DNA from: an uncultured Acidobacteriota bacterium
GTDB taxonomy: Bacteria > Acidobacteriota > Vicinamibacteria > Fen-336
Length of the DNA: 42,853 bases
Reading direction: 5' to 3'
Assembly: GCA_902826455.1 (NCBI GenBank)
Contig: CADEEV010000038.1
Location: 1-42,853, forward strand
The notes below the pieces were generated by a model. It made no database searches. It saw only the letters and a list, made by a program, of their open reading frames with translations, and was not told the DNA's origin. Each line of letters begins with the position of its first letter. Within the stretch, counting starts at the first letter, position 1. The position numbers were made by a program, and so were the translations under genes. Below are positions 1-28,855 of the stretch, in pieces.

Positions 1-151
1 CCGGAGCGCCGACCGAGAAGAGCAGGAGCGCTCGCAGGCCGACGAACGCCGAGGCGTCGGCCGAACGGAACACGAGCATCGCGACGAGCGACGGGACGAA
101 GACGGCGAGAGCCGCCAGCGGAAGGAACAGACAGCCGGCCTTGCTCTTCAC
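1..151 (-). CDS. Membrane or exported protein, N-terminal fragment
   Basis: The frame opens at a GTG at 151 and runs off the left edge of the window, so only about 50 residues are visible. After a Lys-Ser-Lys start there is a long hydrophobic run (LFLPLAALAVFVPSLVAMLV), then an Arg and a second hydrophobic run. This looks like a signal anchor or the first helices of an integral membrane protein. It lies 24 bases after the preceding minus-strand gene, with an AGGA about 10 bases upstream of the GTG, so it is probably the last visible member of that operon. Function cannot be told from this fragment, and the start is inferred. Confidence 0.45.
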   Translation of the reverse strand, partial: MKSKAGCLFLPLAALAVFVPSLVAMLVFRSADASAFVGLRALLLFSVGAP

Positions 152-1101: not shown

Positions 1102-1617
1102 CTAGAGAGGGACGATCACTCGGGGCGCCGGTCCGCCGTGCTCCGCGACGTGGCGGGCGAGGGTGCGCTCGACCGAGGCCCGCTGATCGGCGGCGAAGTC
1201 CGTGGTGTCGATCGTGACCCGCGAGCCGTTCTTCGCGTCCACGACGATCGCCCCGGCGAGCAGGTCGATGCGGGCGACCTCGGGCCACGCGATCGTGGTG
1301 GTGCCGAACAGGCCGCGGAAGCTGAGGGCCGGCGTCGCGATCTCGAGCTTCCAGACGAGCAGGTGGATCGCGATCAGCAGCGGACCCAGGGCCAGCACCG
1401 TGGCCACGCGCCGAAGCGTCGGGCGCGGGATGGCCCAGGCCAGGGCCAGGGCCCCGAGGCAGCAGATGGCGGCTCCGGTGCCCCGCGGCCACGGGTAGTC
1501 GATGCGCAGGGCCGCGTTCAGGAGCGTGATGCGCGGCGGGCCCGTCGAGAGCCAGGCGCCGGCGCAGAGCACGACGAAGCCGAGGACGGCCGCCGGAAGC
1601 CGCGAGGAGCGATTCAC
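1102..1617 (-). CDS. Membrane protein with PH-like C-terminal domain
   Basis: About 171 residues. The N-terminal half holds roughly three hydrophobic segments. The C-terminal half has the alternating pattern SFRGLFGTTTIAWPEVARID followed by IVVDAKNGSRVTI, which resembles bacterial PH-like domains found after membrane helices. I chose the GTG at 1617 because a TAGAAT hexamer lies 7 bases upstream. An in-frame ATG at 1624-1626 overlaps that hexamer and would give three more residues. The gene diverges from the cysteine dioxygenase gene across about 60 bases. The domain assignment is by pattern only and is moderate. Confidence 0.6.
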   Translation of the reverse strand: MNRSSRLPAAVLGFVVLCAGAWLSTGPPRITLLNAALRIDYPWPRGTGAAICCLGALALAWAIPRPTLRRVATVLALGPLLIAIHLLVWKLEIATPALSFRGLFGTTTIAWPEVARIDLLAGAIVVDAKNGSRVTIDTTDFAADQRASVERTLARHVAEHGGPAPRVIVPL

Positions 1618-1624
1618 GCCCGGC

Positions 1625-1630
1625 ATTCTA
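1625..1630 (-). promoter_or_regulatory. -10 hexamer TAGAAT before the 1102-1617 gene
   Basis: TAGAAT on the minus strand ends 7 bases before the GTG at 1617. With normal -10-to-start spacing the transcript would begin at or next to the GTG, so the gene may be leaderless. No convincing -35 is visible. Confidence 0.45.
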
Positions 1631-17285: not shown

Positions 17286-17327
17286 ATGATACGCCCGCCT
17301 CTCGGCGCGCACCGGTTCTGGTATCCT
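17286..17327. promoter_or_regulatory. Divergent promoter region
   Basis: The 69-base divergent gap (17269-17337) contains TATCAT on the minus strand (17291-17286) facing the hydrolase gene and TATCCT on the plus strand (17322-17327), only 10 bases from the ATG at 17338. Neither has a strong -35. The plus-strand spacing predicts a very short or absent leader. Confidence 0.4.
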
Positions 17328-17337
17328 CCACTTCCCG

Positions 17338-18006
17338 ATGCCCATCGCCGTCGCAGCCCTCAGCGGGGACCTCGGCCGGGCGCCCGTCGCCCTCGCCCGG
17401 CTCGTCGCCCTGGGTTGGGACCTGGTCATCAGCCACGCGGCTGGCGCGCCCGACGCGGGCTATCGACTGCAGCAGGAGCTCGGCAACGCCTTGCGCCAGG
17501 CGCGGCTCCAGCGTTCCGTCGCCTCGGTCCTCGTGCAGTTGGTGGTGGACTCCGAGGATCCCCAGCACGCGCCCCACGAGATCGTCGAGATCCGCTCGAT
17601 CCGGCTGCTCGTCGAGTCCGGGATCGTGGCGATCGCCGGCGGCGCCGTGCCCGTCGTCCGTGAAGGCGGGGGACGCCTGCGCAGTGTCGAGGTCCCGATC
17701 GACAAGGACCGCGCGAGCTCGCTCCTGGGGCGGCTGCTCGGGGCCGACCTGCTGATCCTGTTCACGAACGTGCCCGAGATCGTGTTCGACTCCGGCCGGC
17801 CCGACGAGCGGCCGCTGCGGCGGCTCACCGTGGGCGAGGCGCGCACGCTGCTCGCGACGTCGACGTTCGTGAAGGGCGGCATGGCGCCGAAGCTCGAGGC
17901 CGGCGCGGCGTTCACCGCGGCCACCGGGAGGCCTGCGATCCTCACGACGCCCGAGCGGATCCTGGACGCGCTCGTCGGCACGTCCGGCACGGTGATCCGG
18001 CCGTGA
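17338..18006 (+). CDS. Carbamate kinase-like protein, shortened and degenerate
   Basis: 222 residues, against about 310 for carbamate kinase. The C-terminal half clearly belongs to the amino-acid-kinase fold: VEIRSIRLLVESGIVAIAGG, VEVPIDKDRASSLLGRLLGADLLILFTNV, and GGMAPKLEAG in place of GSMGPKVEA. The catalytic-type Lys of PIDKD is kept. The N-terminal GGNAL motif is replaced by LSGDLG, the HGNGPQVG motif by SHAAGAPDAG, and the middle lid containing the KPIGPFY segment is missing. It may therefore be a non-classical kinase or a regulatory protein. It is the first gene of a four-gene operon joined by 4-base overlaps to the MinD-like gene. Confidence 0.8.
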   Translation: MPIAVAALSGDLGRAPVALARLVALGWDLVISHAAGAPDAGYRLQQELGNALRQARLQRSVASVLVQLVVDSEDPQHAPHEIVEIRSIRLLVESGIVAIAGGAVPVVREGGGRLRSVEVPIDKDRASSLLGRLLGADLLILFTNVPEIVFDSGRPDERPLRRLTVGEARTLLATSTFVKGGMAPKLEAGAAFTAATGRPAILTTPERILDALVGTSGTVIRP

Positions 18007-20067: not shown

Positions 20068-20933
20068 CCGGTGGGGCCCCCGGCCGCGGGCTTCTGGCCG
20101 CGGCTCTCCTGGACGATCTTGACCCCGACGCTCGCGCCGATGCGGTCGGCGCCGGCCTCGATCATGGCCTGGGCCGACTTCAGGTCCTTGACGCCGCCGG
20201 CGGCCTTGACGCCCATCTCCGGGCCCACCACGCGCCGCATCAGGGCCACGTCGGCCGCGGTGGCGCCGCCCGACGCGAAGCCGGTCGACGTCTTCACGAA
20301 GTCGGCGCCGGCGGCCTTCACGATCACGCAGGCCTTCACCTTCTCGTCGTCGGTGAGCAGCGCCGTCTCGATGATCACCTTCGAGAGCACGCCCCGCTCG
20401 CAGCACGCGTCCGCGACGCCGGCCACGTCGCGCTCCACGAGCCGGTAGTCGCCCGACTTGAGGGCCCCGACGTTCATCACCATGTCGACCTCGCGGGCGC
20501 CGTCCTCGATCACGCGGATCGTCTCGAAGGCCTTGACGGACCCGGGCGTCGCGCCGAGCGGGAAGCCGGCCACGGTGCAGACGCGCGTCTCGGAGCCGCG
20601 CAGCAGGTCGGCGCAGAGCCGCACCCACGTCGGGTTCACGCAGACCGTGGCGAAGCCGTGCTCGCGGGCCTCGCCGCACAGCGTCTCGATCTGGCTGCGG
20701 GTGGCGTCCGGCTTGAGCAGCGTGTGGTCGATCATGCGGGCGATCTCGCGGGGATAGGCGGTCTTGCCGGCCTGCAGCCCGAAGCGCTCGGCGCCGTGGC
20801 CGACGAGGCGGCCGAAGCGGTCGGGGCAGCAGCCGCCCGTGGCGCCGTGGCAGGCGCAGGGCGCCTCCTCGGGGGCGCGCAGCTGCTGGAGCACCGCGCG
20901 GACGACGGCTTCGACGAGGGCGTTGTCGCTCAC
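20061..20933 (-). CDS. deoC: Deoxyribose-phosphate aldolase with N-terminal extension
   Basis: 290 residues. The aldolase domain begins at about residue 65 ([14 protein letters not shown]) and splits 2-deoxyribose 5-phosphate into glyceraldehyde 3-phosphate and acetaldehyde. The Schiff-base Lys is K214 in [10 protein letters not shown]150 ([14 protein letters not shown]) and K243 (MGVKAAGGV) complete the site. The first 18 residues ([17 protein letters not shown]) look like the amphipathic encapsulation helix of microcompartment enzymes. A Cys-rich linker (C26, C28, C35, C36) follows. The GTG at 20933 overlaps the rpiB stop (GTGA), which supports this long form. With the RpiB variant it resembles the enzyme pair of sugar-phosphate-utilizing microcompartments. 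Confidence 0.92.
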
Positions 20934-21547
20934 TTGCTGTAGTGCTCCTCGATCGCCACGATCTTGCGCACGCGGCGCGCGTGGCGCTCCTCCGTGCACT
21001 CGGCGGCGAGGAACGCCGCCACGATCTCCGCCGCCTTCGCCGCGTCCACGAACTTCGAGCCCAGGGTCAGCACGTTGGCGTCGTTGTGCTCGCGGGCGTT
21101 GCGGGCCGCGGCCTCGTCGACGCACAGCGCGGCGCGCACGCCCGGCACCTTGTTCGCGGCCATGCACGAGCCGATGCCGGCGCCGTCCACCAGGATCCCG
21201 AAGCGGACGCTGCCGTCCTTCACGGCCTGGGCCACGGCCAGGGCGATGTCGGGATAGTCGACGGCCTCGGTCGAGAACGTGCCGACGTCGCGGATCGCGC
21301 GGCCCATGCGGGTGAGGTCCTTCTTGAGGGCTTCCTTCAGCGGGAAGCCGCCGTGGTCGGCGCCGATCGCCACGAGCTTCGAGGCCTGGCCGGCGGCCGA
21401 CTCCACGAGGCGCACGCCGCGCTGCGCCGCCAGCTCGCGCGCCCACGGCGTCACGATCGCGCCCGCGGCGATCTCGAGCTCGCCGCCCTGGGGGACGGCC
21501 GTCACGTCCTCGCCCGTGACGATCGATCTGCGCTTGGTCTCCGACAC
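20930..21547 (-). CDS. rpiB: RpiB/LacAB-type sugar-phosphate isomerase, variant with N-domain
   Basis: 205 residues, about 50 more than usual RpiB. The C-terminal 150 residues are RpiB/LacAB-like: [38 protein letters not shown] and REHNDANVL. At the catalytic-Cys position the sequence is [14 protein letters not shown], with Asp (D121) instead of Cys, and the only nearby Cys is C128. The N-terminal part SIVTGEDV...[20 protein letters not shown] matches the short N-domain carried by several microcompartment enzymes. I start at GTG 21547; an upstream ATG at 21580 would overlap the divergent symporter start. RpiB members interconvert ribose/ribulose 5-phosphates or other aldose/ketose phosphates; the variant site leaves the substrate open. 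Confidence 0.85.
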
Positions 21548-21560
21548 GCTTCGAGGCGCG

Positions 21561-21570
21561 ATGGTAGCAT
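21561..21570. promoter_or_regulatory. Overlapping divergent -10 elements
   Basis: The decamer ATGGTAGCAT reads TAGCAT on the plus strand (21565-21570), 8 bases before the symporter ATG at 21579. It reads TACCAT on the minus strand (21566-21561), 13 bases before the rpiB GTG at 21547. Both fit TANNNT and share the central TA. With only 31 bases between the two starts, the two genes must share this small region. No -35 can be assigned with confidence. Confidence 0.45.
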
Positions 21571-21578
21571 GGCGCCTC

Positions 21579-22913
21579 ATGCTCGAAGCGCTGGGCCAAG
21601 CCATCCTCGTCACGAGCGATTTCGTCTGGGGATGGTGGACCATGGCGCTGCTCCTGGGCGCCGGCCTGTTCCTCACGCTGCGCTACCGGTTCGTGCAGAT
21701 CACCCGTCTCCGCGAGGCCGCCGCCACGATGTTCAGCGGCAAGACCACGAGCGGCGACGGCGCGCTCTCGCCGCTCCAGGCGTTCATGACCGCCCTCGGC
21801 GCGTCGATCGGCACCGGCAACATCGCTGGCGTCGCGACCGCGATCGTCTCGGGCGGACCGGGCGCGCTGTTCTGGATCTGGGCCTACGGCTTCTTCGCGA
21901 CCACCGTGAAGCTGACCGAGGCCGTGCTCGGCATCCACTTCCGGCGGGTCGAGAACGGCACGGTCGTGGCGGGTCCGAGCCTCTACCTGCGCGACGGCCT
22001 CAAGAGCCCGCGGCTCGCGTGGGTGTACGGCCTCGTGGCCGGCGTCGCGGCCCTCACCACGACGCCCTTCACGCAGCCCAACTCGATCGCGGTGGTCATG
22101 GAGAGCGAGCTCCACATCCGGCCGCTCTACACCGGCCTCGTCCTCGCCGTTCTCGCCGCCCTCGTGATCCTCGGCGGCATCAAGTCGATCGGCCGGGCCG
22201 CCGAGAAGCTGACGCCGCTCAAGGTGGCGCTCTACCTGATCGGGGGCGTGTTCGTCATCCTCTGGCACGTCGAGAAGCTGCCGGGGGTCCTGGCTCTCGT
22301 CTTCCAGGAGGCCTTCTCGTTCCGCGCCGGCGCCGGCAGCGTCGCGGGCCTCGGCATCATGGTCGCGATGCGCTACGGCCTCGCCCGGGGGATCTACGCG
22401 AACGAGGCCGGCTACGGCACCGCGGCCGTGGCCTACGGGACGGCCCAGAGCGACAAGCCGCTGCAGCAGGGCCTGAACGCGGTGATGGAGGTGTTCATCG
22501 TCTCCTTCGTCACGTCCTCGATCAGCGCCCTCACGATCCTGGTGAGCGGCGTGTGGAACGACGGCCTCACGAGCACCGCGGTGGTGGCCCAGGCCTTCTC
22601 CTCGGCGATCCCCGCGGTGGGCGGCTTCATCGTCGCCTTCTGCGTGTTCCTGTTCGGCTACACGACGCTCATCGGCTGGGCGTACTACGGCGAGCAGTTC
22701 CTCGAGGACCTGTTCGGGCCGCGCATCGTGCTGCCGTACCGCTGGATCTACTGCATCCTCATCGTTTTCGGCGCGACCTCGAAGGTGAACGTGGTGTGGG
22801 CCTGGGGCGACCTCATGAACGGCCTGCAGATCTTCCCGAACCTGGTCGGCGTGCTGGGCCTGTCGGGACTCGTGGCCGGCATGCTGCGCGAGCGCAAGGG
22901 CAAGCCCGTATGA
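21579..22913 (+). CDS. Sodium/alanine symporter family (AGCS) transporter
   Basis: 444 residues with about ten hydrophobic helices. The family signature [41 protein letters not shown] (residues about 62-102) is present, as are [35 protein letters not shown] and [19 protein letters not shown] proteins bring alanine, glycine or similar small amino acids into the cell with Na+. The start is ATG 21579, after a TAGCAT; an ATG at 21561 in the same frame overlaps that hexamer. Its stop overlaps the lysA start (ATGA), so transporter and decarboxylase are cotranscribed. Confidence 0.92.
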
Positions 22914-27794: not shown

Positions 27795-27838
27795 ATCTTG
27801 GGCTGGGCCGCGAACCTGGTCAATCAGCCCCGTATAAT
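27795..27838. promoter_or_regulatory. Divergent promoters for DUF819 and dipeptide epimerase
   Basis: On the plus strand a perfect TATAAT (27833-27838) ends 9 bases before the epimerase ATG, with no recognisable -35. On the minus strand TTGACC (27823-27818), a 17-base spacer and CAAGAT (27800-27795) form a sigma-70-like promoter, 6 bases from a GTG and 21 from the ATG of the DUF819 gene. The two promoters interleave within about 45 bases. Confidence 0.55.
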
Positions 27839-27847
27839 CGCGCCCGC

Positions 27848-28855
27848 ATGAAGGTCAGCCACGTCCCGATGGACCTGCGCCTCAAGCACACGTTCCGGAT
27901 CGCCCGGGGCGCCTCCGACGAGCGGCGCAACCTGCGCGTCGAGATCGAGGACGCGGGCCGCCTCGGCCTTGGGGAGGCGGCGCCGATCCTGCGCTACGGC
28001 GAGGACCGGGAGTCGGCGGCGAAGGCGGTGGACGCCATGGCGCCGCGCCTGCGCGACCCGCGGCGCTTCGCGACCGCCGCGGCCGACGCCGCGGTGGCGG
28101 GCCAGCACTCGGCCCAGGCGGCCGTCGACATGGCGCTTCACGACCTGGCGGCCCAGCGCATGGGCGTCCCGCTCTACGAGATGCTCGGGCTCGATCCCTC
28201 GCGGACCCCCGTCACGTCCTTCACGATCGGCCTCGACACGCCCGAGGTCGTGGTCCAGAAGGTGAAGGAAGCGTCGGCGTACGCCGTGCTCAAGGTGAAG
28301 ATGGGGTCCGACGACGATCGCGCGGTGCTCGAGGCCGTGCGCGACACGACCGACCAGCCGCTCCGCGTCGACGCGAACGAAGGCTGGACCCTGGAGGGCG
28401 CCGAGTCGCGCCTCGCGTGGCTGGCGAAGCTCGGCGTCGAGTTCGTGGAGCAGCCGATGCCCGCCGACCGCCTCGAGGACATCCGGGCGCTTCGCAAGCA
28501 CAGCCCGCTGCCCTTCTACGCGGACGAGAGCGTGCACAACGCGGCCGACATCCCCCGCCTGGCCGGAGCCTTCGACGGCATCAACATCAAGCTGATGAAG
28601 TGCGGCGGCCTGGGCGAGGCGCTCCGCATGATCGCGGTTGCGCGCGCCCACGGCATGAAGGTGATGCTGGGCTGCATGATCGAGTCGTCGATCGCGATCA
28701 CCGCGGCGGCCCACCTCTCGCCGCTGGTGGACGCCGCCGACCTCGACGGCAGCGTGCTGATCGCCGAGGACCCCTACGACGGGGCCACGATCGTGGACGG
28801 CAAGCTGGTGCTGCCGGATCGTCCCGGCCTCGGCGTCGTGGCGCGCGGCCGCTAG
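27848..28855 (+). CDS. Dipeptide epimerase (enolase superfamily)
   Basis: 335 residues. The N-terminal capping domain is followed by the barrel with the muconate-lactonizing/AEE-type catalytic set: K149/K151 in VLKVKMG, metal ligands D175 (DANEGW), E201 (VEQPM) and D226 (YADES), the opposing Lys K248/K251 in NIKLMKCGG, and CMIESS. DLDG near residue 298-301 is the motif that grips the dipeptide amino group in Ala-Glu epimerases. It should interconvert L-Ala-D-Glu and L-Ala-L-Glu or related dipeptides released from murein. It is cytoplasmic and starts directly after a TATAAT with no ribosome-binding site. Confidence 0.9.
   Translation: MKVSHVPMDLRLKHTFRIARGASDERRNLRVEIEDAGRLGLGEAAPILRYGEDRESAAKAVDAMAPRLRDPRRFATAAADAAVAGQHSAQAAVDMALHDLAAQRMGVPLYEMLGLDPSRTPVTSFTIGLDTPEVVVQKVKEASAYAVLKVKMGSDDDRAVLEAVRDTTDQPLRVDANEGWTLEGAESRLAWLAKLGVEFVEQPMPADRLEDIRALRKHSPLPFYADESVHNAADIPRLAGAFDGINIKLMKCGGLGEALRMIAVARAHGMKVMLGCMIESSIAITAAAHLSPLVDAADLDGSVLIAEDPYDGATIVDGKLVLPDRPGLGVVARGR

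Follow-up and report, generated by a model that had tools for sequence, protein, structure and literature searches.

Predicted leaderless first genes and compact divergent promoters in a Vicinamibacteria genome

Four genes with a TANNNT hexamer next to the start codon

The window, i.e., the whole stretch of 42,853 nucleotides analyzed here, is contig 38 of a Vicinamibacteria genome of 5.26 Mb in 108 contigs. Its G+C content (~71%) is the same as that of the sampled contigs, and neither Rfam families nor tRNAs were found within it. Four of its genes start shortly downstream of a TANNNT hexamer. The features concerned, with hexamer positions as read from the sequence, are as follows.

1102..1617, minus strand: gene for a small membrane/PH-like protein, predicted leaderless, start GTG 1617 (weak Pfam match, orthologue starts)
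1625..1630, minus strand: putative -10 hexamer TAGAAT, 7 nt before GTG 1617
17322..17327, plus strand: putative -10 hexamer TATCCT, 10 nt before ATG 17338
17338..18006, plus strand: gene of the amino-acid-kinase family, whose transcript is predicted to be leaderless or to carry a ~3-nt leader (Pfam AA_kinase, 1e-15)
20930..21547, minus strand: rpiB-family (LacAB_rpiB) gene, oriented divergently to the symporter gene (Pfam, 2e-51)
21561..21566, minus strand: opposed -10-like hexamer TACCAT, 13 nt before GTG 21547
21565..21570, plus strand: putative -10 hexamer TAGCAT of the symporter gene, 8 nt before ATG 21579
21579..22913, plus strand: sodium:alanine symporter family gene, predicted leaderless (Pfam Na_Ala_symp, 1e-103)
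27833..27838, plus strand: putative -10 hexamer TATAAT of the epimerase gene, 9 nt before ATG 27848
27848..28855, plus strand: enolase-superfamily gene (mandelate racemase/muconate lactonizing type), predicted leaderless (Pfam, orthologue starts)

The first-pass annotation had described four -10 hexamers in front of these genes and the four starts as lacking a Shine-Dalgarno (SD) sequence. Reading the coordinates confirmed all four hexamers, and a 5-mer SD was absent at all four starts. Additionally, each gene is divergent to its upstream neighbor and thus comes first in its transcription unit.

The enolase-superfamily gene (Pfam MR_MLE_C, 3e-42, plus MR_MLE_N) presumably encodes a dipeptide epimerase, as already assumed in the first-pass annotation. 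Its best named match, 74% identical, belongs to a metagenome-assembled Vicinamibacteria bacterium (G006). A TANNNT hexamer was found exactly 9 nt before the ATG in five of the six genomes with readable upstream sequence (TATAAT in our genome and G010, TATGAT in G006, TATCAT in G011 and G013), and these five genomes span three genera. The orthologue of the sixth genome (G003, locus L149) has no hexamer, and a seventh genome (G009), whose sequence ends too early, was left out of the six. No TTGACA-like -35 element was found at a spacing of 15 to 19 in the epimerase promoter, the best candidate reaching 2/6 matches.

For the symporter gene, 13 genomes were readable, and eight of them, one belonging to another family, have TANNNT 8 to 11 nt upstream of an in-frame ATG; the remaining five have no hexamer. 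The exact arrangement TAGCAT-8-ATG occurs in our genome and three relatives. One more locus (L235) is incomplete and stands outside the 13. Our own gene caller had placed this start at 21561, and the orthologues favor ATG 21579. Similarly, the start of the PH-like gene was called at 1626, and its orthologues favor GTG 1617. This gene gave a weak match to Pfam bPH_6, under the curated cutoff. The hexamer is located 5 to 7 nt before its start in 5 of 10 genomes, the orthologues L268, L272, L274 and L275 having TAGAAT or TACAAT at this distance from an ATG. It is absent from L267 and L271, in which the gene is operon-internal and overlaps the end of the upstream gene, and L269 has CAGAAT instead of TANNNT. 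Two further orthologues (L270 and L273) were not clean enough and were not counted as having the hexamer.

No close orthologue of the amino-acid kinase was found, the best match being 49% identical over residues 75 to 222. We take its N terminus (MPIAVAALSGDLG) to resemble the first strand of the family. The protein has just 222 residues, the Pfam match covers profile positions 111 to 231 only, and the nearest relatives are larger; because of this, the gene may be degenerate or divergent.

Frequency of the hexamer at first genes

The genome sample consisted of 1,233,280 bases (~23% of the genome; contigs C1 to C4 and the window), in which 1,051 genes were called with a self-trained coding model making no use of upstream signals. 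Genes with a divergent neighbor or a co-directional gap of more than 60 nt were considered first genes (n = 431), and those with a gap of at most 25 nt internal genes (n = 473); 142 of the 1,046 genes having a neighbor fell into neither class. SD sequences were scored as 5-mer matches. A 16S rRNA, sought for a check of the anti-SD, had no match in the assembly (G000), although its completeness is given as 100.

TANNNT was found to end 6 to 11 nt before 92 called first-gene starts, while 22.2 were expected from positions 20 to 59. Among in-frame ATG codons near first-gene starts, 92 of 453 had the hexamer at this distance, compared to 3 of 118 and 1 of 86 in the two out-of-frame controls (pooled 4/204, P = 4e-12). 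For GTG, the corresponding values were 28/465 in frame and 5/160 and 3/145 out of frame. TAnnnT ranked first among all 64 XYnnnZ patterns with a 4.1-fold enrichment, the second-best pattern reaching 1.8-fold. Spacers of 6 to 11 nt occurred 19, 16, 16, 25, 10 and 6 times over a background of ~3.7 per position, and spacers of 0 to 5 nt only 6 times in total, so that the counts drop abruptly at the distance that separates a -10 box from the start.

When alternative in-frame starts were allowed, 115 of the 431 first genes qualified. The out-of-frame controls gave 8 and 4, and shifted spacers (12 to 47) gave 32 to 52, with a mean of 39.7. Since shifted spacers still yield this many of the 431, chance may account for up to one third of the 115 matches. 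The true fraction is thus about 17 to 25% of first genes, the value varying with the control used. This is what "often" would mean in the earlier proposal that first genes are often leaderless, which the enrichment test on ~23% of the genome strongly supported: the hexamer is enriched at the proposed distance in a frame-specific, spacing-specific and SD-excluding manner, and this is conserved between genera.

A 5-mer SD was found in only 2 of the 115 hexamer genes versus 92 of the 316 other first genes. The SD therefore does not set internal genes apart, 106/473 of which have one. The assertion that internal operon genes carry strong SDs thus applies to a minority of them. Furthermore, 27 of the 473 internal genes have TANNNT 6 to 11 nt before the start, with 1.6 expected, so that the adjacent hexamer is not exclusive to first genes. 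This suggests that there may be promoters inside operons.

Nature and distribution of the hexamer

Alignment of the 115 sequences on the hexamer gave TA(G/T)A(A/C)T within GC-rich flanks. A TTGACA element (at least 5/6 matches) was present at a spacing of 15 to 19 in 9 of the 115, while control spacings gave 1, 1 and 0 and shuffled sequences 1.2, and TGn lay directly upstream of the hexamer in 23 sequences, compared to 5.1. Most of the 115 have neither element. Given this excess of TTGACA-like -35 elements at promoter spacing, the hexamer probably represents a sigma-70-type -10 box, an assignment made indirectly through the geometry of the -35 and TGn elements.

We propose that this box is placed so that the first transcribed nucleotide would be the A or G of the start codon itself or lie only a few nucleotides from it. 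Such an mRNA would have neither a leader nor an SD, and the ribosome would consequently have to bind the 5'-terminal AUG or GUG directly. The same 17 to 25% of transcript-starting genes would be leaderless, and the remaining ones would use an SD or neither signal. From the computed position, frame, spacing, conservation, SD exclusion and -35 geometry we infer the exact transcription start and the mode of translation, and we hold this explanation as a whole, with a -10 box at the start codon and a transcript starting at or near it, to be very probable.

If, on the contrary, any start codon had some TANNNT nearby and the four sites had simply been picked by the reader, the pattern would be due to chance. 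The window itself is suggestive, as 4 of the 14 first genes called in it have the hexamer near the start, which gives P = 3e-5 against the out-of-frame rate but only P = 0.03 against the shifted-spacer rate. The genome sample is decisive: the frame-specific enrichment and the first rank among 64 patterns led us to reject chance at this level, and the spacing is moreover conserved in relatives, so that we regard this explanation as practically negligible. It is also highly improbable that the annotated starts are wrong and that translation truly begins further downstream, after a normal leader with an SD. Our caller did misplace some starts (1626 for 1617 and 21561 for 21579), but an in-frame start with a nearby 5-mer SD was found in only 7 of the 115 genes (2 and 5 out of frame), and the orthologous N termini begin at the same place.

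AT-rich, SD-less leaders recognized by the ribosome exist in Bacteroidota. The hexamer genes, which lack an SD, could likewise carry a translation signal of this type, with transcription starting further upstream. However, TTGACA and TGn are in excess at the distances from the hexamer that a promoter would have, the motif is TA...T in GC-rich flanks rather than a generic AT-rich stretch, and it is missing where the PH-like gene is operon-internal, all of which makes a translation signal quite unlikely. A closer competitor is that the promoters are real but that many mRNAs have a leader of 2 to 5 nt, given spacers of 9 to 11 nt and a usual discriminator of 6 to 7 nt. Spacers of this length, that of the epimerase among them, could yield leaders of 1 to 4 nt. 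A spacer of 9 nt is the mode for ATG starts (21/88) and is fixed in five genomes at the epimerase. Nevertheless, spacers of 6 to 8 nt are also common (48/88 for ATG, 22/27 for GTG), and we lean only slightly against such short leaders.

Leaderless genes preceded by TANNNT are a known kind and are new here for the lineage only. To our knowledge, Vicinamibacteria were not among the three Acidobacteria surveyed for such genes in 2011. In Mycobacterium tuberculosis, the -10 box reportedly adjoins start codons that have no SD. As far as the accessible text of the following sources goes, Zheng 2011 (PMC3160421) described TANNNT ~12 bp upstream of the start, without an SD, in leaderless bacterial genes and listed leaderless genes in 3/3 Acidobacteria (Table 2; average 13.3%, range 9.7 to 19.4). 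Our genes resemble these in the TANNNT motif with uninformative middle bases, the lack of an SD and the high-GC genome, but they belong to Vicinamibacteria and their spacers reach 9 to 11 nt. In Deinococcus-Thermus, about one third of genes have the -10 motif, its promoter role was shown experimentally, and a -35 at 17 bp strengthens the promoter (Zhong 2025, PMC12340547); motif, position and the lack of a -35 in most cases are the same as here, in a different phylum. The leaderless transcriptome of M. tuberculosis, an actinobacterium, was mapped by RNA sequencing (PMC3898074), whereas the acidobacterial genes are predicted from sequence. Vicinamibacteria are listed at 41% in an SD table (PMC10783764).

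In the phylum, 247 genomes were compared. TAKAMTN{6,9}ATG occurred at 151 sites versus 8 for the reversed control in our genome, a ratio exceeded in just one other. Ratios of 3 or more were reached by 53 of the 247 genomes and ratios of 2 or more by 101, and two families with at least five genomes fell below 1 (pooled ratios of 0.85 and 0.64); the reversed control corrects base composition incompletely, so that a low ratio in AT-rich genomes is no proof of absence. The leaderless habit is patchy within the phylum, being strong in our genome and not visible in some families, and a single phylum could thus serve to follow the gain and loss of leaderless starts. In such genomes, starts are misplaced by gene finders that look for an SD, as they were at 1617 and 21579 by our caller based on coding signal alone, and -10 adjacency would be a better start rule for Vicinamibacteria.

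Divergent pairs with opposed hexamers

Divergent pairs with a -10 hexamer on both sides numbered 19 of 157 in the 1.23-Mb sample, with 16 expected. Pairing of leaderless genes beyond chance was thus unsupported overall and was seen only at short distances: among 21 pairs with called starts 1 to 36 nt apart, 10 had both boxes, 4 had one and 7 had none. In seven of the 19 pairs, the opposed hexamers have 2 or 4 bp in common, and the start codons are 20 to 29 bp apart. The 4-bp overlap (CAT-6..10-ANTATANT-6..10-ATG) was found at 60 sites versus 4 control sites in 60 genomes. Overlap is not the sole compact form, since abutting opposed boxes were also enriched (33 versus 4 control sites in the 60 genomes), though less than the 4-bp overlap. 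The 2-bp type gave 427 versus 164 control sites in the 60 genomes and 70 versus 15 in the family; it is defined by fewer fixed bases and exceeds its control less strongly, and chance may explain part of its matches.

The rpiB/symporter promoter belongs to the 2-bp type, as TACCAT on the minus strand and TAGCAT on the plus strand share TA (ATGGTAGCAT at 21561-21570). Three relatives have a perfect palindrome, ATGCTAGCAT, at this promoter. Transcripts are expected to be leaderless toward the symporter and to have a short leader toward rpiB, since the hexamer lies 13 nt before GTG 21547. The Pfam match of the rpiB-family protein begins at residue 59; the protein could thus have 58 extra residues at its N terminus, or the gene could start further downstream than called. 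Inverted arms (GAGGCGC ... GCGCCTC, 21553-21578) flank the promoter and could represent an operator or a hairpin; they are not obviously kept in the relatives L240 to L242.

In the ftsX/udk pair, named by Pfam, the start codons are 24 bp apart (L132:6135-6158; contig C3, 226135-226158). Our genome has one near-palindromic -10 between them, GATTATACTC, which is perfect in several relatives (GATTATAATC). Of the 15 closest loci (L276 to L290, from family and order genomes), 11 have the palindrome ATTATA(A/C)T at a distance of 6 to 9 nt from the udk ATG, and in five of the 11, our own included, it is also 8 to 10 nt from an opposite-strand start codon. In two of them (L278 and L279), no divergent ftsX adjoins the palindrome within the sequence examined. 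A candidate pair at pdxJ was rejected as a conserved one: our genome has it, but the relatives have no opposed box. A -10 at 8 to 9 nt was found in 2 of the 18 other pdxJ loci compared, and locus L206 is incomplete.

We are inclined to believe that Vicinamibacteria recurrently seat head-to-head leaderless pairs on one palindromic -10, with 20 to 29 bp of intergenic DNA, mutually exclusive promoters, and -35 or regulator sites inside the opposite gene; ftsX/udk would be the conserved example and rpiB/symporter a half-leaderless one. Such compact shared promoters are the most interesting consequence of our findings. According to the accessible text of Warman 2026 (PMC12825309), symmetric -10 promoters serve divergent transcripts in E. 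coli. The arrangement is similar here, as judged from sequence, with one pseudo-symmetric -10 in which opposed elements overlap. Unlike in E. coli, both transcripts are predicted to be leaderless, which is why the start codons are only 20 to 29 bp apart; the term "leaderless" occurs 0 times in that paper. In the titles and abstract openings of the literature searched, no leaderless bacterial pair on one -10 box was described. If our reading is true, few divergent regulatory regions could be smaller than a palindromic -10 box shared by a leaderless pair, and such boxes would offer a clean test bed for promoter exclusion.

At one udk locus (L285), the same TATAAT is separated from the udk ATG by a leader of ~44 nt containing AGGAG, which looks like a switch between a leaderless and an SD-led start.
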